In this document: positions 249 to 10,888 of the stretch, in pieces | Numbering within the stretch: the stretch's first letter is position 1 | Layout: each line of letters begins with the position of its first letter | Assembly: GCF_000379825.1 (NCBI RefSeq) | Contig: NZ_KB903813.1 | Location: forward strand, 45,802 to 83,221 | DNA length: 37,420 nucleotides | DNA from: Longispora albida DSM 44784 | GTDB taxonomy: Bacteria > Actinomycetota > Actinomycetes > Mycobacteriales > Micromonosporaceae | Reading direction: 5' to 3' | Program-made: the position numbers and the translations under genes | Notes under the pieces: generated by a model | Told to the model about the DNA's origin: nothing | The model's database searches: none | What the model saw: only the letters and a program-made list of their open reading frames with translations

Positions 249-341
249 TCCTGTAGAGAACAATTCGGCAACCACTCGGGGTGTGTGCCATCTGCTGCGT
301 GTCCAGCACGTGCATAGGTCATGCGCGGTAGGATGTGCAGT

Positions 342-572
342 ATGGCTACTGAGCGGGTGAATCTGACGATGGATCAGACGGCTCTGGCTGCGGCGCGGTC
401 GATGGCTGCGGCTGAGGGTCAGTCGTTGTCGGAGTGGCTGTCGAAGGCTGCGCTGGAGCGGGTGATGGCGCATGCTGCGCGGGTGTCTGCTGAGCAGGAT
501 CGGCTGATGCCGGAAGAGTTCGCGGGCTTCGACGCTGAGCGTGAGGCACGGATGTTCGGTGAGGCGGCGTGA
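342..572 (+). CDS. Type II antitoxin, ribbon-helix-helix-like
   Basis: Small protein of about 76 residues beginning MATERVNLTMDQ. The pattern of a short N-terminal strand followed by two helices (ALAAARSMAAAEGQSLSEWL) fits ribbon-helix-helix antitoxins, which bind their own promoter as dimers and neutralise a toxin with their acidic C-terminal half (here EQDRLMPEEF...). I chose the ATG at 342 because GGTAGGA sits about 8 bases upstream; an in-frame ATG at 321 lacks this spacing. The stop overlaps the GTG start of the next gene (GTGA), a typical antitoxin-toxin coupling. The family assignment is inferred from size, composition and the partner gene. Confidence 0.7.
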   Translation: MATERVNLTMDQTALAAARSMAAAEGQSLSEWLSKAALERVMAHAARVSAEQDRLMPEEFAGFDAEREARMFGEAA

Positions 573-871
573 GGCGTGGCGAGGTGTGGGCGATCAAGCG
601 TGCCGGGCGTGAGCACCTGGTCGTCATCGTCGGGCATGACACCTTGACTGAGGCTCGTACCGGGGTGCTGTCTGTGCCGCTGTCAGACGTGCGGGCGTCG
701 ACGCTGATCGAGCCCGCGCTGTGGCTGGACGACGACACCCCGGCTGGTGTGGCGCTGACGCCCCGGGTCGGAGAAGTCACCAAGGACTACTTCTCCGAGT
801 GCCGGGGCAAGCTGCGAGATGACAGCCTCAGCTCACTCGACATCGCGCTGAGGGCTGCGCTCGATCTTTAG
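569..871 (+). CDS. PemK/MazF-type toxin (endoribonuclease)
   Basis: 100 residues, GTG start overlapping the antitoxin stop. The opening RRGEVWAIKRAGREHLVVIVG matches the MazF/PemK pattern: a basic strand with GEVW, then a hydrophobic strand usually ending in VVIV. The middle has the expected strand giving VLSVPLSD, and the C-terminal part has TPRVGEVTKDYF, like the LDQ.R...R segment of the fold. Family members cleave mRNA at short sequences and are held inactive by the cognate antitoxin. The reading frame is intact and of normal length. On a mobile element such a pair would favour maintenance. The target sequence cannot be told from the protein. Confidence 0.75.
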   Translation: MRRGEVWAIKRAGREHLVVIVGHDTLTEARTGVLSVPLSDVRASTLIEPALWLDDDTPAGVALTPRVGEVTKDYFSECRGKLRDDSLSSLDIALRAALDL

Positions 872-1693: not shown

Positions 1694-2536
1694 TCACACA
1701 GCCTCGTGTCGGTAGATCGGGCTCAGCAGCTCGACCCTGGTCGGGCTGTGAGTGTCAGGGTCATAGTCGGCGCCAACGATCACTGAGAAGCGGTCGGTCT
1801 TGGCCTGCCGGTACAGCTCGTCGATTCGGGTACTGATCAGGTGGGCCACGCCGAGGGAACCCTGGGGGTGAATGCCCGTGAAGATGATCAGGTCGCCCAG
1901 GCCGTCTGGCCTTCTCAACCGCCCGAGGTAAGCCGTGTCGTTCGGACGCGGAGGGTCCTGATCCTGGCCGGATCGGTACCGCTGGCCTGTCTGCCTGTCC
2001 ACCAGGGTCCAGACCTGGTCGTGGTCACGCTCGAACCTGATGAACGGGTCCTGATCGAGGACTTCAGCGATGGCGGGGGAGATCCGGGGACCAGACACCA
2101 CGATCAAGCCTGCGCGGTTGAGGTCGATCGCACCGCCGACCGGGATGCGCTCGGTCGAGCAGTCAAGGCCGAACGACTCGGCTAGGTCCTTGAGCTGGCT
2201 GGCTACGTCGGTATCCTCCACCGCAACCACCGGGCGGGATCGGATGGTTTCCCGCTTCACGGGGATGGCGACGGTGATCGAGCCAGAACCGAGGAAGGCC
2301 CCTTCGGCTGCGGGGCCGTCCTGCTTGATCTGGTGGATCCGCCCACGGCTCAGACCTACAGCCTTGGCAATGTCGCCGTAGGAGTGGCCTTCGTCGTGCA
2401 GCTCAGCGATCAGCAGCTTCCGAAGCCTGCCAAGCTCTGTGGCCTCCTGACGCGCTTCTGCCATCTTCTTCGTGGCGCGGCGTACCGCCTCGAAGCGATC
2501 CGGTAGCTCCCTAAGCTCTCGAACGCTGTCGATCAT
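1694..2536 (-). CDS. Helix-turn-helix regulator with sigma-70 region-4-like N-terminus
   Basis: About 280 residues from the ATG at 2536, which has GGGAAGGG upstream. A longer version from a TTG at 2620 adds 28 residues. The N-terminal third has a helical stretch (VRRATKKMAEARQEATELGRL...) and then the clear helix-turn-helix HSYGDIAKAVGLSRGRIHQI, as in sigma region 4 and Hin-like domains. The C-terminal 180 residues are a separate domain with VVAVEDTD, LIVVSGPRIS and a WTLVDRQTGQRY hairpin. It looks Rossmann-like, but I do not recognise it and it may sense a ligand. The gene points away from the long rightward operon and is next to the twin palindromes, so it is the obvious candidate for their binding protein. 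Its phosphatase neighbour suggests control by phosphorylation (inference). Confidence 0.7.
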   Translation of the reverse strand: MIDSVRELRELPDRFEAVRRATKKMAEARQEATELGRLRKLLIAELHDEGHSYGDIAKAVGLSRGRIHQIKQDGPAAEGAFLGSGSITVAIPVKRETIRSRPVVAVEDTDVASQLKDLAESFGLDCSTERIPVGGAIDLNRAGLIVVSGPRISPAIAEVLDQDPFIRFERDHDQVWTLVDRQTGQRYRSGQDQDPPRPNDTAYLGRLRRPDGLGDLIIFTGIHPQGSLGVAHLISTRIDELYRQAKTDRFSVIVGADYDPDTHSPTRVELLSPIYRHEAV

Positions 2537-2622
2537 CGCCACGCACCCTTCCCTAGTCGGGTCGCATACCCGCTCAGCCCCCATGTCCAGGAGCACGTTC
2601 CGTTCCTTGCCTTCGCTCAATC

Positions 2623-2638
2623 CTAGATCCTTGTCTAG
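2623..2638. promoter_or_regulatory. Degenerate half-site of the TGTCTAG operator
   Basis: TGTCTAG at 2632-2638 is preceded by the imperfect CTAGATC at 2623-2629. It has the same half-site as the two palindromes downstream but the arms are in everted order. It lies just upstream of the leftward regulator gene, so it could serve autoregulation. Confidence 0.35.
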
Positions 2639-2674
2639 GCCCCTTGACGCCCGGCGAACGGATGAGTACTTTGG

Positions 2675-2692
2675 TGTCTAGCCCCCTAGACA
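2675..2692. promoter_or_regulatory. Operator palindrome 1, TGTCTAG-N4-CTAGACA
   Basis: TGTCTAGCCCCCTAGACA is a perfect 7-bp inverted repeat with a 4-base spacer. A second copy with the same arms and the same spacer length begins 43 bases downstream (about four helix turns), so both could be bound on one DNA face. It sits between the divergent regulator gene and the rightward operon. Confidence 0.65.
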
Positions 2693-2717
2693 GTGCCGGG
2701 AAGCCTCGGCGGTCAAC

Positions 2718-2735
2718 TGTCTAGGGTACTAGACA
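2718..2735. promoter_or_regulatory. Operator palindrome 2, overlapping the ribosome binding site
   Basis: TGTCTAGGGTACTAGACA is a perfect 7-bp inverted repeat with a 4-base spacer. Its last base is the first base of AGGAGA (2735-2740), the Shine-Dalgarno sequence of the gene starting at 2746. A protein bound here would lie over the promoter/5' end of the operon and should repress it. Confidence 0.65.
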
Positions 2736-2745
2736 GGAGATTGCG

Positions 2746-3177
2746 GTGGCGATTGCTGGTGGTTTCCGGTTCAAGGTCGACATGGCGGATGTGTTCCCGA
2801 AGGGGTGCGTGATGGGTGCGGATCCGGTGGTGGCGGTGACGGACTTCGAGAAGAAGGGGAAGAAGGCCGACGACCAGGAGCGTGACAAGCAGGATCCGGA
2901 TCTGCGGGTGTGGGCGGTGCGGGTGACTGACCTGGACGAGGCGCTGGTGGGTAAGTCGCGTGAGGTGGTTGTGAAGATCTCGGCCACGGTGCAGCCGGTT
3001 CCGCCGGTGGGTGCGTTCCAGCAGGTGGAGTTCGAGGGGCTGACGATCACGCCGTGGGTGGAGGAGAAGTCGTTCGGCGGGGTGAGCCGGGGCGTTCAGA
3101 AGTTCTCGATCCGGGCGACCGGTTTCAAGATGTCGGGCAAGGCTGCTCCGGCGGCGGCCCCGAAGGCTGGCGCGTGA
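2746..3177 (+). CDS. AICE-conserved small protein, SCO3933-like (tentative)
   Basis: 143 residues from a GTG with AGGAGA five bases upstream. The body alternates strands (FRFKVDMADVF, VWAVRVTDLDEAL, REVVVKISATVQPVPPVG, QQVEFEGLTITPWVEE) and ends in a low-complexity KAAPAAAPKAGA tail. This resembles the small beta-rich proteins that open many Streptomyces AICE operons and are called SCO3933-family regulatory proteins. An OB-like fold is possible. First gene of the rightward operon, directly behind the twin operators; its stop overlaps the next start. The function is not established, and roles in control of excision/replication are guesses from position. Confidence 0.5.
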   Translation: MAIAGGFRFKVDMADVFPKGCVMGADPVVAVTDFEKKGKKADDQERDKQDPDLRVWAVRVTDLDEALVGKSREVVVKISATVQPVPPVGAFQQVEFEGLTITPWVEEKSFGGVSRGVQKFSIRATGFKMSGKAAPAAAPKAGA

Positions 3178-3401
3178 TGCGGCGGTCGGCGCGGTCGAAC
3201 CTGGACACGACGGTCAGCCAGCATGTCCGTGAGTACACCGAGTGTTCCTACGTGGTCTATGGCCATCAGAACCGGGTGACCGTGGACGTCGGCCAGGTGA
3301 CGTTGTTCCTGCCCGCCTCCGAGCTGGCTGAGCTGATTGACGTGCTCGGTGAGGTTCAGGCGGAGCTGGCTTTGGCGGTCGTGCCGCCGGATGGTTCGTG
3401 A
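3177..3401 (+). CDS. Small hypothetical protein of the AICE
   Basis: 74 residues. The ATG at 3177 overlaps the preceding TGA (TGATG), indicating translational coupling; a longer in-frame opening upstream lies inside the previous gene and is not used. The sequence begins MRRSARSNLDTTVSQHV and has a beta-hairpin-like centre (CSYVVYGHQNRVTVDVGQVTLFL) followed by an amphipathic helix (ASELAELIDVLGEVQAEL). I do not recognise the family. It is followed by the first CTTGGCGG leader hairpin. Confidence 0.55.
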   Translation: MRRSARSNLDTTVSQHVREYTECSYVVYGHQNRVTVDVGQVTLFLPASELAELIDVLGEVQAELALAVVPPDGS

Positions 3402-3413
3402 TCGGTCTTGGTG

Positions 3414-3474
3414 GTGCTGGGCCGGTGTTCTTGGCGGAATCTGCGGCCCAGCACTCGTAGCAACTCCCTGATGA
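3414..3474 (+). promoter_or_regulatory. CTTGGCGG leader hairpin, copy A
   Basis: A perfect 11-bp inverted repeat, GTGCTGGGCCG (3414-3424) and CGGCCCAGCAC (3444-3454), closes a 19-base loop containing CTTGGCGG (3430-3437). The tail holds TCCCTGAT (3465-3472), five bases before the AGGAGG of the next gene. The same loop core and tail recur in copies B and C with different stem bases, which argues for conserved RNA structure. CTCC at 3464-3467 could pair with the GGAG of the Shine-Dalgarno. Confidence 0.6.
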
Positions 3475-3488
3475 GCAGGAGGTGTGCT

Positions 3489-3671
3489 GTGGGCAAGCGT
3501 ACGGCAACCAGCCTCGCGACGCCGGAGGGCAACCCGGTGGGCAAGTGCGAGGTGTGCCGGAAGAAGAAGACTCTCAGCAACGGCCGGTGTGAGGTCTGCG
3601 CCGGGCAGCTTGAGATCGCGTTCCCGGCGGTGCGGGACAGTTCGGGCCGGTTCGTGAAGGCGGGCTGGTGA
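3489..3671 (+). CDS. Mini zinc-ribbon protein (CxxC...CxxC)
   Basis: 60 residues from a GTG with AGGAGG six bases upstream; earlier in-frame starts would run through the leader hairpin. The centre is KCEVCRKKKTLSNGRCEVC: two CxxC knuckles 12 residues apart, the classic spacing for one structural zinc. The rest is short and basic (GKRTATSLATPEG at the front, SSGRFVKAGW at the end). Probably a small DNA-, RNA- or protein-binding module. It overlaps the next start (GTGATG). Two other tiny Cys-rich proteins are encoded in this element. Confidence 0.6.
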   Translation: MGKRTATSLATPEGNPVGKCEVCRKKKTLSNGRCEVCAGQLEIAFPAVRDSSGRFVKAGW

Positions 3672-3871
3672 TGGCCGGGCTGATGGTGCGCACGTCGTAT
3701 CCGTGCGGGTTGTGTGACGGTGCGGGTGAGGTTCCGGCTTCGTCCTTGGTGGACGGTGCGGCGCTGGTGATCTGCCCGGTGTGTGAGGGCTCGGGTTCAG
3801 ACCCGGATGTGGTGGCTCGTGACCCCCTCGCGCCGGTGCGCCGGCCGGTTTCGCTGCTGGTGGTGGCCTGA
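3668..3871 (+). CDS. Small CxxCxGxG-type zinc-finger protein
   Basis: About 66 residues; the start is GTG 3668 or ATG 3671, both overlapping the previous stop. Two knuckles, CGLCDGAGEV and CPVCEGSGSD, follow the CxxCxGxG pattern of DnaJ-type zinc fingers, here in one pair only. The C-terminal part is Pro/Val rich. The stop (TGA 3869-3871) overlaps the next ATG. No specific function can be read; a protein-protein adaptor role is possible. Confidence 0.55.
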   Translation: MMAGLMVRTSYPCGLCDGAGEVPASSLVDGAALVICPVCEGSGSDPDVVARDPLAPVRRPVSLLVVA

Positions 3872-4455
3872 TGGCCCGGCGGAAACGGCGTAGCGGGCTG
3901 GTGCGGGCGTGGCGGCGGTCGAAGTCGGCGTACCGGACGGCGAAGAGGCGCTACCGGCAGGCGAAGAAGGTTGCGAGGGCTGCTGCGGCTGGTACGCGGC
4001 GGGTGTGGCGGAAGGTCACCTACCGGGAGCTGGGGGAGCGGATCGCAGCCGACACCCTGGCGCGGGCGGCGGCGCGGGAAGCCAGGCGGCGTGAGGGGTC
4101 TTCGCGGGTGCCGAAGGTCGCGGTGCATGAGCCGCCGGAAGTGGTCAAGGCAGTGATGGCAGCAAGGAAGACAACGGCAACGGCGGGACTGGGAGGTTCA
4201 GCGGTGGATGCGCTCGGGATGGTGGACGCGGCGGCTCGTGGGAAGTCGTCGGAGCATGAGCAGGCGATGGCGATCGTGAACAAGTGGCTGTACGTGGTGA
4301 ACGAGGCGGCGGTGAACCTGGCGACGGTGCGGGGTGAGTCCTCGGAACTGTCGACGGATGTGCTGTCGCTACCGCTGGCTGGTGCGATGCGCAGGCTGGA
4401 TGAGGCCATGCAGGTGCTCATGATGCTGCGCGGCCGTGTCGCGGAGATGGGTTAG
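3871..4455 (+). CDS. Hypothetical protein with strongly basic N-terminus
   Basis: 194 residues, ATG overlapping the preceding stop. Residues 1-50 are very rich in Arg/Lys (MARRKRRSGLVRAWRRSKSA onward), which suits nucleic-acid binding. The second half is helical with hydrophobic heptads (EQAMAIVNKWLYVVNEAAVNL, MRRLDEAMQVLMMLRGRV). No cysteines and no membrane segment. The helical half is similar in character to the next two small proteins, which are also acidic/helical, so they may assemble together (inference). I do not recognise a family. Confidence 0.5.
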   Translation: MARRKRRSGLVRAWRRSKSAYRTAKRRYRQAKKVARAAAAGTRRVWRKVTYRELGERIAADTLARAAAREARRREGSSRVPKVAVHEPPEVVKAVMAARKTTATAGLGGSAVDALGMVDAAARGKSSEHEQAMAIVNKWLYVVNEAAVNLATVRGESSELSTDVLSLPLAGAMRRLDEAMQVLMMLRGRVAEMG

Positions 4456-4459
4456 AGGC

Positions 4460-4696
4460 GTGGCGGGCCAGATGGTGCTGCCGCCCGGGATGGATGCGGG
4501 CGAAGCCCTGGGTGTGCTGTACAGCGCGGGGCACAAGGTCGGGCAGGCGCATGCGGACCTCGAAGACGCCGCCGGGGACGTCGAGGACATCGGACTGGAT
4601 GTCCTTGAGGGGTCCCTGGAGCGGGCGAAGAACGCAGCGTACGACGTCCTGGAAATGATCTCCGATCTCAAGACCGCTGCACGTCGCGGTATGTAG
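4460..4696 (+). CDS. Small acidic helical protein
   Basis: 78 residues from the GTG at 4460, four bases after the previous stop. The sequence is mostly one acidic alpha-helical stretch (ALGVLYSAGHKVGQAHADL, DVEDIGLDVLEGSLERAKNA) with a short basic end (AARRGM). It resembles in size and character the 68-residue protein encoded downstream at 4836. Unknown family. It precedes the 139-base leader that carries the tRNA-like fold and hairpin copy B. Confidence 0.5.
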   Translation: MAGQMVLPPGMDAGEALGVLYSAGHKVGQAHADLEDAAGDVEDIGLDVLEGSLERAKNAAYDVLEMISDLKTAARRGM

Positions 4697-4708
4697 CAGC
4701 AAGAGGTA

Positions 4709-4752
4709 GCCCGGCCGTCAGGCGGCGTTCCCGGTTCGATCCCGGGGCGGGC
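4709..4752 (+). ncRNA. tRNA-like three-way junction with a canonical T-arm mimic
   Basis: Outer stem GCCCG (4709-4713) with CGGGC (4748-4752). Arm 1 is GCCG/CGGC (4714-4717, 4723-4726) with a five-base loop. Linker GTT. Arm 2 is CCCGG/CCGGG (4730-4734, 4742-4746) with the seven-base loop TTCGATC, identical in form to a tRNA T-loop and followed after one base by the outer stem. There is no anticodon arm and no full tRNA can be drawn. It could be a tRNA 3'-end relic or a structural mimic in the leader of the 4836 gene. Confidence 0.4.
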
Positions 4753-4758
4753 ACGAGG

Positions 4759-4829
4759 CAGGCCAGCCGGTGAGCTTGGCGGCGACCGGGCCTGTTCTCT
4801 TCCCTGATCTGTGACTCCGATGTGGAGGG
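4759..4829 (+). promoter_or_regulatory. CTTGGCGG leader hairpin, copy B
   Basis: Stem CAGGCC-(AGC)-CGGT (4759-4771) pairs with ACCGGGCCTG (4785-4794), ten pairs with a three-base bulge. The 13-base loop GAGCTTGGCGGCG (4772-4784) carries the conserved core. The tail has TCCCTGAT (4801-4808). CTCC at 4815-4818 can fold onto the GGAG of the Shine-Dalgarno (GGAGGG, 4824-4829) with a five-base loop, seven bases before the GTG start. Confidence 0.65.
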
Positions 4830-4835
4830 TATGTC

Positions 4836-5042
4836 GTGACGAAGGAAGAAGAGCTGCGGTTCCTGCTCGCGGTTGGACGTCACGTCCGGCGGGCGCACGA
4901 AGAGATGGAACCGGCGGTGCGGCAGCTGAAGAAAGCCGAAGAGTTCGCCTACATCACCGAGCGTGCCGATGCCGCGCTCGTCCTGCTCGACTGCGTGCTT
5001 GACCTGCTGGCCGGATCGATGCCAGACCTCACCGAGGCGTAG
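4836..5042 (+). CDS. Small helical protein of the AICE
   Basis: 68 residues from a GTG with GGAGGG six bases upstream. Almost wholly helical: KEEELRFLLAVGRHVRRAHE, then a charged stretch, then a hydrophobic end (AALVLLDCVLDLLAGSMPDL). The hydrophobic C-terminal helix is not long or clean enough for a confident membrane call. It stands alone between leader copies B and C, so its expression should be set by copy B. Unknown family. Confidence 0.5.
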   Translation: MTKEEELRFLLAVGRHVRRAHEEMEPAVRQLKKAEEFAYITERADAALVLLDCVLDLLAGSMPDLTEA

Positions 5043-5057
5043 CGGCACATGCAAGAC

Positions 5058-5125
5058 GGAAGGCCACCGAGCTTGGCGGCAGATGGCCTCCCGATCTCCC
5101 CTGATCCGCAAAAACCTGGAGAGGA
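5058..5125 (+). promoter_or_regulatory. CTTGGCGG leader hairpin, copy C
   Basis: Stem GGAAGGCCA (5058-5066) pairs with TGGCCTCCC (5084-5092), eight pairs with one A-C mismatch. The 17-base loop (5067-5083) contains GAGCTTGGCGGC (5069-5080), the same 12 bases as in copy B. The tail has CCCTGATC (5098-5105). GGAG (5118-5121) of the Shine-Dalgarno can pair with CTCC (5126-5129) across AGGA. It precedes the traB-like gene. Confidence 0.65.
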
Positions 5126-5135
5126 CTCCATCCTA

Positions 5136-6869
5136 ATGCGTACTTCCCTGGCTCCTTCGCGCCGTTCTGCGGCTGACGTCCTGGTCGGCACGCTGTTCCG
5201 CGCTGCGGGCATGCTCCTGGTCCTGCTCGGCAAAACCGCCTGGGCGCTCGTCAAGTTCCTGGCCCGTCACCCCCGCTCGACAGCGGTCCTGGCTGTCGCT
5301 GGGGCGCTCGTTCACAAGGCGGGCTGGCCTGCCCTCGCTGTGGTCCTGGCCCTGGCTGGAGGTGTCCTGGCCGGGTGGCGTGGCCTGCACCCGCGCTCGT
5401 TCCGCCGGACCGTGCAGCCGTGGATCGTGGCGTGGTGGCGGCGGTGGTCGTTCTACTCCCGCCAGTGGCCCGGCTGGGCGTACCGCTGCAAGCTGACCGT
5501 CCGCACCGAAGACGGCGGAGAAGAGGCCGCCCAGATCCGCAAGGTAACCGTGACGCCGGGTACCGATCGGCTTCTGGTCCGCATGCCGGTGGGCCTGCAA
5601 CCCAAAGCGTTCGAGAACGCAGCCGACGCTCTCCAGCATGCCTCGGGGTCCCTCGATTGCCGGATCATCCCCGCTGGCAAACCGGCTCATGTGGTCATCG
5701 AGTTCCAGCGGCGTGACGTCCTGGCCGCCGTGGTCCCGGCCCTCCCGGTCCCCGCCGGACCCGCCAGCCAGGCACCACTGCCCCGCCCTATGGAGATCGC
5801 GCGTAAGTGGGCGGCTCCGGTCCTGCGGTATCTGCCTGGCGTGGTCCCGGCAGAGCAGTCCGAGTTGTCCCCGGTCGCCAAGCTCGGTATCGACCTGGGT
5901 GCCGTGCCGGTCGGGATCCGGGAAGACGGAAACCGCTGGGCGCTGCCCCTGCTGGGCCGTCACGTCCTCGTCGGTGGCATGTCCCGGTCGGGCAAGGGCA
6001 GCATCATCTGGTCCCTGATGCGGCATCTGGCTCCGGCGATCCGTGACGGCCTGGTCGTGGTCGACGGCATCGACCCGAAAGGCGGCCTGGAACTGGAGAT
6101 CGGCAAGGCCATGTTCGCCCGGTACGAGGCTGACGACCTCGAAGCGATGGCCGACCTGATCGAAGCCGAAGCGGCTGACGCCGACCACCGCTCGAAGCTG
6201 CTGCGTGGCGGGGCTCGTAAGTTCACGCCGTCGGCGGAGTACCCGTTCCGGATCCTGCTCATTGACGAACTCGCCTCCCTGACCGCCTACGCCCCGATGG
6301 CCATCCGCATGCGCGTGGAGAAGGCCCTGGGGCTGCTGCTGACCAAAGGCGCAGCCCCCGGCTTCTGCGTGCTCGGCTTCGTCCAGGAACCCTCCAAGGA
6401 CATCGTGCCCATGCGCGGCCTGTTCACCCACCGCGTCGCACTCGCCCTGGACACTCCGTCGCAGGTGGACATGGTGCTGGGTGACGGCATGCGTGACCGG
6501 GGCGCGTACGCAGACCAGATCAGCCTCGCGACACCCGGTGTCGGCTACGCCAAAGACGATGCCGAACGGCAGCCGTTGCGGGTCCGGGCCGCCTACGTCA
6601 CCGACGACGAGATCCGCGACATGGCCGAGACCTACCCCGCACCCGGCATCACCCTGGCCGCTGTCCTCGGCGCGGGAGAACCGGCCTCCGCCCCGGCGAC
6701 AGCCCCGGCCACGGTTCCGCTTCCGGCCAAAACGCAGCCTGGCCCGCTGCTGCCTCCGGCTCTGCTGGCCGTGCTCAACAAGGCCACCAAGCCCGAGCCT
6801 GACGCCAGCGACGGCAACGGCAACGGGCCTGCGGCCGGTGACAGCACGACCGGTGGTGGTACCCGATGA
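5136..6869 (+). CDS. traB: TraB-like conjugative DNA translocase (FtsK/SpoIIIE family)
   Basis: 577 residues from the ATG at 5136, with GGAGAGGA about ten bases upstream; an ATG at 5049 would run through the leader hairpin. The N-terminus has two or three membrane segments (LLVLLGKTAWALVKFLA, AVLAVAGALV, ALAVVLALAGGVLAGW), residues about 10-85. Walker A is GMSRSGKGS at 281-289; Walker B is RILLIDELASL with Asp377-Glu378. TraB proteins form hexameric pores and pump double-stranded plasmid DNA between hyphae using ATP, without relaxase or type IV secretion. The C-terminal 60 residues are Pro/Ala rich; the family's winged-helix recognition domain is not obvious to me. Central transfer gene of the element. 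Confidence 0.85.
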   Translation: MRTSLAPSRRSAADVLVGTLFRAAGMLLVLLGKTAWALVKFLARHPRSTAVLAVAGALVHKAGWPALAVVLALAGGVLAGWRGLHPRSFRRTVQPWIVAWWRRWSFYSRQWPGWAYRCKLTVRTEDGGEEAAQIRKVTVTPGTDRLLVRMPVGLQPKAFENAADALQHASGSLDCRIIPAGKPAHVVIEFQRRDVLAAVVPALPVPAGPASQAPLPRPMEIARKWAAPVLRYLPGVVPAEQSELSPVAKLGIDLGAVPVGIREDGNRWALPLLGRHVLVGGMSRSGKGSIIWSLMRHLAPAIRDGLVVVDGIDPKGGLELEIGKAMFARYEADDLEAMADLIEAEAADADHRSKLLRGGARKFTPSAEYPFRILLIDELASLTAYAPMAIRMRVEKALGLLLTKGAAPGFCVLGFVQEPSKDIVPMRGLFTHRVALALDTPSQVDMVLGDGMRDRGAYADQISLATPGVGYAKDDAERQPLRVRAAYVTDDEIRDMAETYPAPGITLAAVLGAGEPASAPATAPATVPLPAKTQPGPLLPPALLAVLNKATKPEPDASDGNGNGPAAGDSTTGGGTR

Positions 6870-7132
6870 CCCGCCGCTTCTACCGGCTGCGCACACCCGC
6901 CGAACCCGGTACCGGGCCGGTCGCGGTGTCCGTGCGGGTCGATGAGACCACAGGAGAGCTGTACCTCGCGGTCGGTGCCGGGCGTCGCCGGATGGGGCTC
7001 ACACCTGATGAAGCCTGGGCGTTGTGGCGGTGCCTGTCGGAGGCCGTGTCCTCGGTCAGCGAGCCCCCGGCGTTCGTCATGACCCACATCAAAGCCTCCC
7101 GTCCCCGCAAGCAGAAAGGCGGCACATCATGA
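6866..7132 (+). CDS. Small hypothetical protein between traB and rep
   Basis: 88 residues, ATG overlapping the traB stop (ATGA). Two strands look likely (GPVAVSVRVDETTGELYLAVG), followed by MGLTPDEAWALWRCLSEAV, a helix, and a basic tail (SRPRKQKGG). No recognisable motif. Coupled to its neighbours on both sides, it belongs to the traB-rep operon. Confidence 0.55.
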   Translation: MTRRFYRLRTPAEPGTGPVAVSVRVDETTGELYLAVGAGRRRMGLTPDEAWALWRCLSEAVSSVSEPPAFVMTHIKASRPRKQKGGTS

Positions 7133-7299
7133 CCGGCTACTACGACGACGGCGCGGGCGACGAGCCGCAATGCCAGCTCTGCGGGGCACCGTGGGGATTC
7201 CCGTACTGCTCCGACGCCTGTGCTGCGGCTGATGACAACGGCTACTACTTGTACCGCTGGCCGGACCCCGCTGACAACGAGGGGAAGGGCTCGCGATGA
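7129..7299 (+). CDS. Small Cys-rich (zinc-ribbon-like) protein
   Basis: 56 residues; the ATG at 7129 overlaps the previous stop (ATGA). It has CQLCGAPWGFPYCSDAC: a CxxC knuckle and a CxxxC pair, spaced for one zinc. The N-terminus is acidic/aromatic (MTGYYDDGAGDEP) and the C-terminus is YYLYRWPDPADNEG. Very small zinc proteins at this place are common in actinobacterial plasmids and AICEs, but without known function. Third tiny Cys protein in the element. Confidence 0.55.
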   Translation: MTGYYDDGAGDEPQCQLCGAPWGFPYCSDACAAADDNGYYLYRWPDPADNEGKGSR

Positions 7300-7478
7300 A
7301 CCGGACCTCTGGCCCGTCGAAGGCTTTCACCCGGATCAGCCGGGGCTTCGCGCTCGACATCGACCGGCGCTGGCGCGACACAGAAGACGACCCCTACGCC
7401 GACTGGATCACCCGCCGTGCGACCCAGCTCCACGACGACCAGGCCGCCGAGTACACCGGATGGGAGGAACAGCCATGA
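7296..7478 (+). CDS. Small hypothetical protein upstream of rep
   Basis: 60 residues, ATG overlapping the stop of the Cys-rich gene (ATGA), and its own stop overlaps the rep start (ATGA at 7475). Charged and helical, with many Arg and Asp (DIDRRWRDTEDDPYADW, ATQLHDDQAAEYTGWEE). No motif I can name. Its tight coupling suggests co-production with the initiator. Confidence 0.5.
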   Translation: MNRTSGPSKAFTRISRGFALDIDRRWRDTEDDPYADWITRRATQLHDDQAAEYTGWEEQP

Positions 7479-9274
7479 CCGCCACCGTGACCGCCCTCCC
7501 GCTCCCCGGCCTCGCCCCGGTGCAGGCTGAGCCGGAGGCCCCTCGTCCGGGATCGCGTGCTGCCCGTCAGACCGTGCCGCTGTCCAAGGCGGTCCTGAAA
7601 GAGATCGCGGCTGAGGCCGGGGTGTGCCTGCACCCGATCGCCCTGCGCCGCACCGACACCACCACCGGCCTGACCGAGATCACCGAAGTTCCGTGCGGTG
7701 CCCGGCTCGCGTCGAAGTGCGTGCCCTGCGCCGAGAAGAACCGCAAGCTGCGGGTCCAGCAGATCCGGGAGGGCTGGCACCGCGACACCGAACCCGACCC
7801 TGTGCCCCGCCAGTCCACAATGGAAGAACGCTGGCTCGTGACGCACCGCGCCGCCCTCGAATGGGAACGCGCCGCCCTCGCGACCGCCCAGCTCCACCCC
7901 GACGAACGCGCCCGCCAGCTCGCAGACCTCGACGCAGCCATCGAAGACATCGCCGCCGAGCTCGCGAACGCCGGCCTGCGCGGGTCACTGCCGTCCTCGG
8001 CGGACAAGGCCAAACCTGCCGTGAAACGCTCGACCAAGCGGCGTCAGGACGTACCGGACCTGCCGCGCATGAAGGTCGACCGGGGCCGCACAGTGGGGCG
8101 GGTGATCGCCGGGCGTGACGGATCGATGCACCGCGACTCGATGCTGCTCACCATCACGCTGCCGTCGTACGGCGACATCCACTCGCCCCGGAGGGCTGGG
8201 CGTCCGGTGTGCGCGTGCGGGTCATCGCATCACCCAGACGATCCGGTGGTGGGTACCCCGGTCGACCCTGCCTCGTACGACTACCGCCGTGCCGCCCTCG
8301 ACAGCATTCACTTCTCCCGGCTGACCGACCGGCTTTGGCAGAACCTCCGCCGCGCGACCGGCATCAACATCCAGTACGCGGGCTGCGTCGAACTTCAGAA
8401 GCGGCTTGCCCCTCACGCGCACTTCGCCGTACGCGGCACCGTCCCCCGCGCCCTGGTCCGCCGGGTCGCTGAGGCCACCTACCACCAGGTGTGGTGGCCC
8501 GCCCACGACGAACTCGCCCACGACCCTGCCCGGCCACCCCGATACGACGCCGAGGCCGACTGCTGGATCGACCATGCTGGTACCCCGGTCGACCTGGTGC
8601 CGTGGGACGACGCGGTCGAGGCCATCGACCAGGACGACCAGCCCGAACCCGCTCACGTGATCCGTTGCGGCCGGATCGACCCGCGCGGCGTGAAGGGCGG
8701 AACGAAGGACGCTGAGCGCACGGTCCGGTACGTCACCAAGTATCTGACCAAAGACATCACCGACCACGTGAAACCCGAAGCCGCGGCTGCTGCTGCGCAC
8801 TTCGACCGGCTCCACGCTGAGCTGTCGGTGCTGCCGTGCTCGGCGACGTGCGCGAACTGGATCCTCTACGGCATCGCACCCAAAGGCTGCTCGGGCAAGC
8901 TGAGGCCGGGCAACTGCCGGGGGAGTGTCCACCAGCGCGAATCACTCGGCTTCACCGGACGCCGGGTCCTCATCTCCCGCCAGTGGTCCGGCAAGACACT
9001 CACCGATCACCGGGCCGACAACGCCGCATGGGTCCGGGCGCTGCTGGCTCTCGGCAACGGCGACCAGGACGGCGAGCAGCAACCCGGCCAGCCACCGGCC
9101 CCGGCCCGCTACGCCTACGAACTCTGCCGGCCCGGAGACCCAGACCTACCCCCCGAATCCGTCCGCATCATGCGCGCCATCACGGTCCGGGCTCAATGGA
9201 AACACCAGGTCAGGCAAGCAACACAACGACTCGAAGAACTCTCGGCAACTGGCGTGCTGGCCCGAGCGGCATGA
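7475..9274 (+). CDS. repSA: Rolling-circle replication initiator, RepSA-like
   Basis: 599 residues from the ATG at 7475. The HUH metal motif is LAPHAHFAVRG (His314, His316). The nicking-tyrosine motif is RYVTKYLTKDI (Tyr419/Tyr423), about 105 residues later, the order expected for HUH initiators. Cys clusters at the front (CGARLASKCVPC) and near the end (CSATC...CSGKLRPGNC) suggest zinc sites, as in the pSAM2 RepSA group. These proteins nick the double-strand origin and start rolling-circle synthesis of the excised element. The frame is full length. Excisionase and integrase follow, so replication and excision share a transcript. Confidence 0.88.
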   Translation: MTATVTALPLPGLAPVQAEPEAPRPGSRAARQTVPLSKAVLKEIAAEAGVCLHPIALRRTDTTTGLTEITEVPCGARLASKCVPCAEKNRKLRVQQIREGWHRDTEPDPVPRQSTMEERWLVTHRAALEWERAALATAQLHPDERARQLADLDAAIEDIAAELANAGLRGSLPSSADKAKPAVKRSTKRRQDVPDLPRMKVDRGRTVGRVIAGRDGSMHRDSMLLTITLPSYGDIHSPRRAGRPVCACGSSHHPDDPVVGTPVDPASYDYRRAALDSIHFSRLTDRLWQNLRRATGINIQYAGCVELQKRLAPHAHFAVRGTVPRALVRRVAEATYHQVWWPAHDELAHDPARPPRYDAEADCWIDHAGTPVDLVPWDDAVEAIDQDDQPEPAHVIRCGRIDPRGVKGGTKDAERTVRYVTKYLTKDITDHVKPEAAAAAAHFDRLHAELSVLPCSATCANWILYGIAPKGCSGKLRPGNCRGSVHQRESLGFTGRRVLISRQWSGKTLTDHRADNAAWVRALLALGNGDQDGEQQPGQPPAPARYAYELCRPGDPDLPPESVRIMRAITVRAQWKHQVRQATQRLEELSATGVLARAA

Positions 9275-9287
9275 GGAGGTGGCGACC

Positions 9288-9497
9288 ATGAGTGAAGTGC
9301 GAACCGTCACGACGGCTGCTGATCTGCTGACGATTGATGAAGTGATCGCGATTCTCCGCGTTCCCCGGTCGACGTTCTACTACTGGCGGCAGCGCAGGCG
9401 TGGCCCGGTTTCGATCAAGCTGCCCAACGGTGATGTCCGTATATCGCGTTCCGAGTTCGAGCAGTGGCTTGTCTCGCACCAGGAGGTGTGGACGTGA
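9288..9497 (+). CDS. xis: Excisionase (MerR/AlpA-like winged helix)
   Basis: 69 residues, ATG at 9288 with AGGAGG (9274-9279) eight bases upstream. The helix-turn-helix LLTIDEVIAILRVPRSTFYY is followed by a beta wing (GPVSIKLPNGDVRISRSEF), the standard form of AICE excisionases. They bind and bend DNA near the attachment sites and turn the integrase towards excision. The stop overlaps the integrase start (GTGA), so the two are coupled. Confidence 0.88.
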   Translation: MSEVRTVTTAADLLTIDEVIAILRVPRSTFYYWRQRRRGPVSIKLPNGDVRISRSEFEQWLVSHQEVWT

Positions 9498-10888
9498 CCA
9501 CCAGTTACAAGGTGAAGTTCTGGAGCGTGCGTAAGCGGGCCGGGCGTGCTCAGCCGTGGGAGTTTCGCTGGGTGGTCGGAGGGAAGGAGCATTCTGAGTC
9601 GTTCCTGACGAAGCCGCTGGCGGAGAACTTCAAGTCGGACCTGATGCGGGCGGCTCGTGAGGGCGGGGCCTTCGACGTGGAGTCGGGCTTGCCAGAGACG
9701 ATGGTCAAGAAGGTCTCCTGGTACGACCACTGTGTGTCCTATGCGGACATGAAGTGGCCCGGCTTCGCGGGGAAGTCCCGGCAGTCGATGTCGGAGGGGC
9801 TGACGGCGGTGACGGTCGCCCTGCTCGGCAAGAAGCCGGGGCGCCCGGACGGCAAGCAGATTCGCCACGCGCTGTACTCGTACGCGTTCAACCCGGTCAA
9901 GCGCTCTGAGGGTGTGCCGGAGGATGTGGCGGCGGTCCTGGCGTGGGTGGCGAAGGCTTCGCCGGTGGTGGATGTGCTGAAGGACCTGGGCGTGGTGCGG
10001 AGGGTCCTCGACGCGCTGACGGTGCGGCTCGACGGCAAGGCCGCTGCGGCTACCACGATCTACCGCAAGCGGTCGGTGTTCTACAACGCGCTGGGGTACG
10101 CGGTGGAACTGGGACTGCTGGCGTCCAACCCGGTCGACGCGATCCAGTGGAAGGCCCCGAAGGTCGCCGAAGCCGTTGACCGGAGGGTGGTCGCGAACCC
10201 GCCGCAGGTTGAGACCCTGCTGACGGGGGTATGGATGCAGGGCGGCGCGGGTGAGCACCTGGTCGCGTTCTTCGGCACGCTGTACTGGGCTGGGTGCCGT
10301 CCGGCTGAGGCGCTGGAACTCAAGCTCGCTGGCTGCTACCTCCCGGAGGAGGACGGCGAGTGGGGGCGGCTGGACTTCGAGATGTCGTCGCCCCGGTCCG
10401 GCGCCGACTGGACGGACGGCCGGACCGCCCGGGACTCGCGGGGGCTGAAGCACCGGAGCCGGAAGGACGTGCGGCCGGTTCCGCTCCCGCCCCCGGGTGT
10501 GCGGCTGCTGCGCTGGCACATCGCCAGGTTCGGGGTCGCTGCGGATGGCCGCCTGTTCCGGACTGCTTCGGGTGGCTATGTCACGGACGGCAACTATGCC
10601 TCGGTGTGGCGTGGTGCGCGGGAGCGGGCGCTGACTCCGGCGCAGGCTGCCTCCCCGCTGGCGGCCCGGCCGTATGACCTCCGTCATGGGTGCGCGTCGC
10701 TGATGCTGAATGCGGGCGTTCCGGCTACGGAGGTCGCGCGGCGGCTCGGGCAGGGGGTGGCGGTGCTGATGAAGGTGTACGCGAACTGTGTCGACGGCCA
10801 GGAGGAGATCGCCAACACGGCCATCATGGCGGCACTGACGGGCTGGTCGGGGTCTGGCACACTAGACGCCGGAGACAGCGGGTCCTAG
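9494..10888 (+). CDS. int: Site-specific tyrosine recombinase (integrase)
   Basis: 464 residues from GTG 9494, with AGGAGG seven bases upstream and overlapping the xis stop. The N-terminus is a DNA-binding region; the C-terminal catalytic domain has Arg269 (AGCRPAEALEL), a basic hairpin (RSRKDVRPVPLP), PYDLRHGCAS with Arg397, and the nucleophile Tyr429 (MKVYANC). The usual His of HxxR is Tyr, as in many actinobacterial integrases. The second conserved position, normally GH in GHSVxVLLxVY, reads GQ (Gln420), which is unusual. The protein joins attP to attB. Its gene ends 81 bases before tRNA-Ser. Confidence 0.88.
   Translation: MTTSYKVKFWSVRKRAGRAQPWEFRWVVGGKEHSESFLTKPLAENFKSDLMRAAREGGAFDVESGLPETMVKKVSWYDHCVSYADMKWPGFAGKSRQSMSEGLTAVTVALLGKKPGRPDGKQIRHALYSYAFNPVKRSEGVPEDVAAVLAWVAKASPVVDVLKDLGVVRRVLDALTVRLDGKAAAATTIYRKRSVFYNALGYAVELGLLASNPVDAIQWKAPKVAEAVDRRVVANPPQVETLLTGVWMQGGAGEHLVAFFGTLYWAGCRPAEALELKLAGCYLPEEDGEWGRLDFEMSSPRSGADWTDGRTARDSRGLKHRSRKDVRPVPLPPPGVRLLRWHIARFGVAADGRLFRTASGGYVTDGNYASVWRGARERALTPAQAASPLAARPYDLRHGCASLMLNAGVPATEVARRLGQGVAVLMKVYANCVDGQEEIANTAIMAALTGWSGSGTLDAGDSGS

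Follow-up and report, generated by a model that had tools for sequence, protein, structure and literature searches.

Many actinobacterial AICEs carry strong hairpins between their transfer genes, and the sequences point to an uncharacterised control signal at these places. In the window, which is the whole 37,420-nucleotide stretch of Longispora albida DSM 44784 analysed here, three such hairpins share the loop octamer CTTGGCGG, and their relatives elsewhere keep a conserved loop on variable but paired arms, in either orientation relative to the operon. We propose that the element would be an intercistronic stem-loop of the pra-tra operon in pMR2-like AICEs. These elements move genes among actinobacteria, and no account was found of how expression is tuned after pra.

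The segment 2746-10888 of the window is an AICE module with the gene order pra-tra-rep-int and resembles pMR2. It holds pra, an FtsK-type tra, a RepSA-type initiator and an integrase, all in one direction and adjoining a tRNA gene, an order that agrees with the description in the available part of PMC3218068. The features are, in window coordinates:

2746..3177, + strand: pra homologue, 143 aa, predicted OB-fold-like
3177..3401, + strand: 74-aa ORF between pra and copy A, with a weak homologue in L300
3414..3454, + strand: hairpin copy A, 11-bp stem, CTTGGCGG at 3430-3437
3466..3472, + strand: CCCTGAT tail of copy A; CCTG..CAGG pairing possible beside the ribosome site
3489..3671, + strand: gene of a 60-aa Cys-rich (Zn-ribbon-like) protein, after copy A
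4759..4794, + strand: hairpin copy B, bulged stem, CTTGGCGG at 4775-4782; 25.8 bits, the weakest copy, itself in the model seed
4802..4808, + strand: CCCTGAT tail of copy B
4836..5042, + strand: 68-aa ORF after copy B
5057..5093, + strand: hairpin copy C, CTTGGCGG at 5072-5079
5099..5105, + strand: CCCTGAT tail of copy C
5136..6869, + strand: TraB-like FtsK-type transfer gene after copy C, with homologues in 252 of 354 family genomes
7475..9274, + strand: RepSA-type rolling-circle initiator gene, on the same strand as tra (Pfam PF20199, E 3e-88)
about 9291-9497: excisionase-like ORF (xis), read from the ORF list only
9464..10888, + strand: tyrosine integrase gene; weak XerD/XerC matches under curated cut-offs, homologues in L289, L299 and L304
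10970-11053: tRNA-Ser(TGA), adjoining the integrase gene

The initiator is 49% identical to that of pMR2 and scores far under the cut-off of the pSAM2-type RepSA equivalog. Neither Pfam nor NCBIfam matches the TraB-like gene at E 0.001; the pMR2 gene in the same place carries an FtsK/SpoIIIE domain, by annotation and not by alignment. Homologues of the Cys-rich protein gene likewise come after a hairpin in L293, L294, L296 and L302. Large inverted repeats, CCCTAGACAGT..ACTGTCTAGGG, flank the putative pra promoter at 2684-2726, and inverted repeats CTTGTCTGCCAAG..CTTGGCAGACAAG stand upstream of pra in Micromonospora (L312, L321 and others); such repeats around the putative promoter are possibly operators of element-specific repressors. 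At the left end of the window (321-871) two small overlapping genes, of 83 and 100 aa, resemble a toxin-antitoxin pair in size and layout.

The octamer CTTGGCGG followed 10-30 nt further on by CCCTGAT occurs three times in the window, always on the + strand, and in none of 100 dinucleotide shuffles, at the places where the preliminary description had located a three-copy family. After re-reading of the gene starts, the gaps at 3402-3488, 4697-4835 and 5043-5135 are the only ones above 20 nt within the run 2746-10888, so the hairpins do occupy its only real gaps; the companion claim that every other junction overlaps holds for part of them, the rest standing 4-16 nt apart. Copy A pairs GTGCTGGGCCG with CGGCCCAGCAC over 11 perfect pairs and copy C pairs CGGAAGGCCA with TGGCCTCCCG in a 10-bp stem with one mismatch, whereas the stem of copy B, CAGGC..CCGGT/ACCGGGCCTG, is interrupted by a 3-nt bulge and weaker. 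The octamer itself can fold as C-G and U-G around UGGC, closed by U-A or G-C depending on the copy; according to this predicted folding it need not be a fully open loop. Compared with shuffles, the folding energy gives z values of -2.48 for copy A, +1.20 for B and -0.88 for C; stability alone is unusual for copy A only.

None of the Rfam 15 families matched the hairpins at the curated cut-off, three tRNAs being all the matches in the window, and within 2600-5300 only two irrelevant weak matches appeared at E up to 5. Gap B also holds, at 4730-4746, the tRNA T-arm-like sequence CCCGG-TTCGATC-CCGGG, where neither ARAGORN nor Rfam places a tRNA and which may be a tRNA relic. In the literature covered on AICEs, pMR2, pra/KorSA, TraB/clt and start-associated sequences, to which most subscription journals do not belong, no description of the element was found in titles or abstracts, and the available parts of PMC3218068, PMC4170104 and PMC9513070 make no mention of it.

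Homologues of TraB in the family led to 40 loci that were inspected for hairpins. In many of them the corresponding gap contains GGGCGGGGCTGTC-TGGTCTTGGCGGAC-GGCAGCCCCGCCC or a close variant of it, and a small gene and then traB come next; such elements, where a name could be assigned, are mostly from Micromonospora. Relatives carry a single hairpin or, in some cases, two or three, usually located in the gap behind pra or behind the next ORF. A covariance model was seeded with 10 hairpins, including all three window copies; 7 of its 14 pairs show changes on both sides, a value reached by none of 500 shuffles and compared with at most 2 in slid controls, in keeping with the earlier statement that the stems differ and still pair. 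Searching 354 genomes with this model gave 77 matches at E up to 7.1e-6, 74 of them with a listed TraB within 1.8 kb on the same contig; two more (G006) adjoin pra, one of these also tra, and one (G279) had no neighbourhood assigned. Five matches in the genome of the window itself reach E 1, namely copies A (6e-7), C (3e-5) and B (0.18) and two weaker ones. The suggestion that a covariance-model search would bring up further copies in related elements was thus borne out: many related AICEs carry them in this gap.

Copies with the same loop are repeated, in one orientation per element, in the window (3), Virgisporangium L306 (2), Nonomuraea lactucae L353 (3), Micromonospora RP3T L356 (2) and L291 (2, antisense). 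The stems of the repeated copies are clearly different in the window and in L306; they are nearly alike in L356, L291 and two of the three L353 copies, which are therefore uninformative on the conservation of loop against stem. The L353 element, with CGGCAA hairpins at 2820, 3067 and 3584 of one operon, is an independent parallel to the window. The nearest Pra relatives of the window, L305 (Pra 66% identical) and L306, bear another loop type, so that the loop is not simply coupled to Pra; CTTGGCGG is common to elements whose Pra proteins are about 40-45% identical. Three further cases deserve a record. On L027, an unrelated viral contig, a repeated palindromic element containing CTTGGCGG..CCCTGAT lies in gaps at 3697, 4514 and 5960. 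At 2699-2739 of L283, a 6-kb locus with no pra homologue, a strong hairpin with CTTGGCGG in its loop adjoins a tRNA-like sequence and is possibly a terminator. In the deposited pMR2 sequence (L385, NC_006910; about 882-918) the loop of the hairpin is about 10 nt shorter than its counterpart in Micromonospora rosaria DSM 803 (L345), owing either to a deletion there or to a sequencing artefact.

The Pra tree comprises 88 distinct rows, 69 with a typed hairpin and 19 without, and its type labels, like those used for the spacing, stem-pair and tail counts given below, rest on listed loop words and are biased to conserved cores. Both orientations with respect to the operon are found for all four tabulated loop types. 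For CTTGGCGG and its one-base variants the rows number 31 sense (L275, counted among them, is really antisense) and 11 antisense, for GCCGTAGGAAGC or GCCCTAGGAAAGC 12 and 2, for CGGCAA closed by GAAG/CTTC or a variant 3 and 2, and for the Pseudonocardia hexaloops 7 and 1. The related cores TTTGGCGG, GGTTGGTCGCC and GGCTACCAACC came from further samples. Changes of orientation are spread across the tree: sense CTTGGCGG rows are nested in an otherwise antisense clade (fork 96/88), Dactylosporangium has type 2 in both orientations (100/99) and Planobispora is flipped next to Nonomuraea (100/99). Since rep and tra remain collinear whichever way the hairpin points, the flip affects the hairpin and not the operon; the octamer is on the rep strand where the hairpin is sense and on the opposite one where it is antisense.

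The flipped octamer is largely conserved. In L265-L275 the bases around it vary, these loci having been found by the model and hence being biased to the octamer. Twenty loci chosen by Pra match only, without the loop-word bias, gave an antisense hairpin in 16; the core CCGCCAAG is exact in 13 of the 16, while the other 3 show an insertion of one or two bases in it, and in the 13 exact cases the neighbouring loop bases are nearly identical too. Template switching is known, according to the available part of PMC8794818, to yield loop inversions at perfect hairpins together with compensatory stem changes. The flip has therefore a simple mutational cause, and covariation alone is no proof of selection on RNA: of the earlier argument from pairing to RNA selection, the changing, paired stems stand and the conclusion does not follow from them alone. 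On the sequences compared, the unexpected part is the retention of the core on both strands rather than the flip itself. Loop cores are indeed conserved, type by type, with CTTGGCGG in the window; their occurrence in both orientations speaks against the proposed reader of an RNA loop.

Spacing was measured on 94 of the 100 hairpins listed for the tail, those kept by the rule used for the upstream ORF, with copies A and C among them and B not. The 5' arm begins a median of 11.5 nt after the upstream stop codon (IQR 9-15), and 70 of the 94 distinct hairpins lie at 5-19 nt. This range holds in either orientation and for the majority of loop types, an exception being the scattered GGCTACCAACC type with 3 of 12 inside it. 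A distance of about 11.5 nt past the stop codon corresponds to the edge of a terminating ribosome. From the 3' arm to the next start codon there are 25-64 nt (median 39, n=53). The copies thus closely follow the upstream genes, and intercistronic hairpin is a better name than the leader of the preliminary description. The stem cells of 77 distinct hairpins, L282 being excluded, comprise on the sense strand 929 Watson-Crick pairs, 25 G-U, 8 A-C and 4 other, or 18 G-U against 5 A-C without two doubtful loci (L479 and L481). Wobble of the transcript strand is therefore commoner than wobble possible on the other strand only, a bias that lends mild support, from few independent events, to folding of the sense RNA. 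Position and wobble together favour an RNA hairpin in the operon transcript.

We tentatively prefer, as the likeliest single reading although short of an even chance, an intercistronic RNA hairpin with an insulating or attenuating effect on the downstream genes and with a loop partner indifferent to strand. The mRNA hairpin would fold just past the ribosome that ends translation of the upstream gene, at a good distance ahead of the next ribosome site. Most likely it would protect or insulate the message upstream, for pra or a small protein, and lower or separate expression of the downstream small proteins and TraB, by limiting read-through, processing or re-initiation. The position of the hairpins, their pairing, the conservation of the loop, the several copies in some operons and the flips are observed; from them we infer that the hairpin acts at the transcript level, with the sign given above and through a partner of the loop. 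Because the loop is tolerated in either orientation, this partner would read the stem shape plus something strand-symmetric; Pra, which is predicted to be OB-fold-like and has its gene upstream, is no more than a candidate. Loop conservation whichever way the hairpin points calls for a reader indifferent to strand or for a role of the DNA. It weighs against the insulator, since a purely stem-based RNA function needs no such loop and a reader of the sense RNA should forbid it; so does the finding that copies B and C fold no better than shuffles.

Other RNA-level readings are less probable. The preliminary description proposed a translational switch in which the hairpin, the RNA loop and the CCCTGAT tail would hide the ribosome site under the control of a ligand, a protein or a small RNA, and this we regard as unlikely. 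Its hairpin, loop and copies stand; control of the Shine-Dalgarno sequence by the tail fares less well. In the 53 of 66 leaders compared (duplicates and one leader without a start were omitted) occlusion is not enriched, with a mean pairing of 0.68 vs 0.64 in shuffles. Pairing goes beyond 95% of shuffles (at or below 3/60) in copy A, L204, L230, L233, L327 and L351, as a switch would have it, but these are 6 of 53 leaders only; copy B is not among them, and copy C is paired less than in all 60 of its own shuffles. The tail, CCCTG[AC]T within about 36 nt, is enriched, following 15 of 100 hairpins of all types against a shuffle mean of 0.7, but 12 of the 15 belong to the sense CTTGGCGG type (12 of 28 such hairpins), so that it is missing from most types, contrary to its description as conserved, and the loop flips. 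Very unlikely, in our judgement, is an antisense RNA from the opposite strand that pairs by kissing loops with all copies. It would account for the flips, which preserve the sense-antisense pair, for a loop common to several copies and for action in trans on several leaders; however, both RNAs must then fold and about as many G-U as A-C would be expected, which the counts contradict, and no promoter-like site was found on either strand of 2500-5300 with an E. coli-type consensus that may miss actinobacterial promoters. Least probable of all is a hairpin without any special reader, be it an ordinary terminator working in both directions or a relic of mutation that the template switching cited above keeps perfect and flips. 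A U tract (at least 5 T in 8 nt) accompanies only 4 of 94 hairpins, and a terminator pattern scan of 2500-5300 gave two matches (1.0 in shuffles), the one within copy B, the other at 5117-5130 of the - strand, and neither at A or C; without U tract and without Shine-Dalgarno occlusion, the hairpin is neither a classical terminator nor a simple Shine-Dalgarno switch. A relic is further opposed by CTTGGCGG being shared at a Pra identity where neutral DNA would be randomised, and by the exact core in 13 of the 16 antisense hairpins, though the loops there are nearly the same throughout.

The main rival is a site at the DNA level, the hairpin or the octamer being bound as duplex, cruciform or single-stranded DNA by a reader indifferent to strand; we hold it to be rather unlikely. 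Such a site could be the clt of AICEs, a roadblock or an origin-related site. Conservation in both orientations and an octamer of 8 bp present in more than one copy in several elements agree with it, and a clt in particular would suit the absence of a described clt motif for pSAM2 in the available part of PMC9513070 and the reading of 8-bp repeats by TraB of Streptomyces plasmids reported in that of PMC4170104. However, a duplex reader needs no complementary, freely changing arms, and the hairpin takes its position from the stop codons. The collinear rep and tra of sense and antisense elements make a replication nick site unlikely; three such sites in the same orientation would be expected to give small circles. 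A k-mer comparison revealed no separate replication origin. A bolder reading, which we likewise rate as rather unlikely, is a strand-symmetric signal in which each AICE has one loop allele, which some operons (window, L306) repeat on stems that differ, and a trans-acting reader recognises the loop on either strand; that reader would be either an antisense RNA forming kissing loops or a protein of the element that binds cruciforms or hairpins. If true, the signal would couple transfer-gene expression to the element's own DNA or RNA state, and the hairpin would possibly be the missing transfer site of AICEs.

Whichever reading holds, the family offers defined sites in many genomes together with natural experiments, different stems and loops flipped by evolution, that separate the effects of stem, loop and strand. 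It also illustrates that loop conservation and stem covariation need not imply a strand-specific RNA reader.

Intercistronic mRNA hairpins and REP-type palindromes lie close behind a stop codon inside an operon, in either orientation. The AICE hairpin resembles them in both respects, and differs in that strong matches to the CTTGGCGG model stand almost only beside an AICE traB and that the loop is conserved by type while the stem is freer. With intrinsic terminators it shares a short G+C-rich hairpin after a gene, yet it has no T tract (4 of 94 only) and the genes continue in the same direction. The SAS/ESAS of cluster K mycobacteriophages, as presented in the available parts of PMC3203893 and PMC11373665, are likewise a repeated inverted repeat in the gaps of actinobacterial mobile elements, placed just before a subset of genes and of unclear role. 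They stand mostly in one orientation, few being reversed, and the ESAS has sequence-conserved arms, a variable spacer and a putative promoter, whereas the hairpin family combines variable arms with a conserved loop; the 13-bp SAS has no match in the window at up to 2 mismatches. The sps palindromes bound by SpdA2 of Streptomyces plasmids, described in the available part of PMC4170104, are also a conserved repeat of rolling-circle conjugative elements and, in a further likeness, have a reader coded by the element. The sps, however, is a short palindrome inside spdA2, whereas the conserved part of the AICE hairpin is an asymmetric loop located in the gaps between genes.
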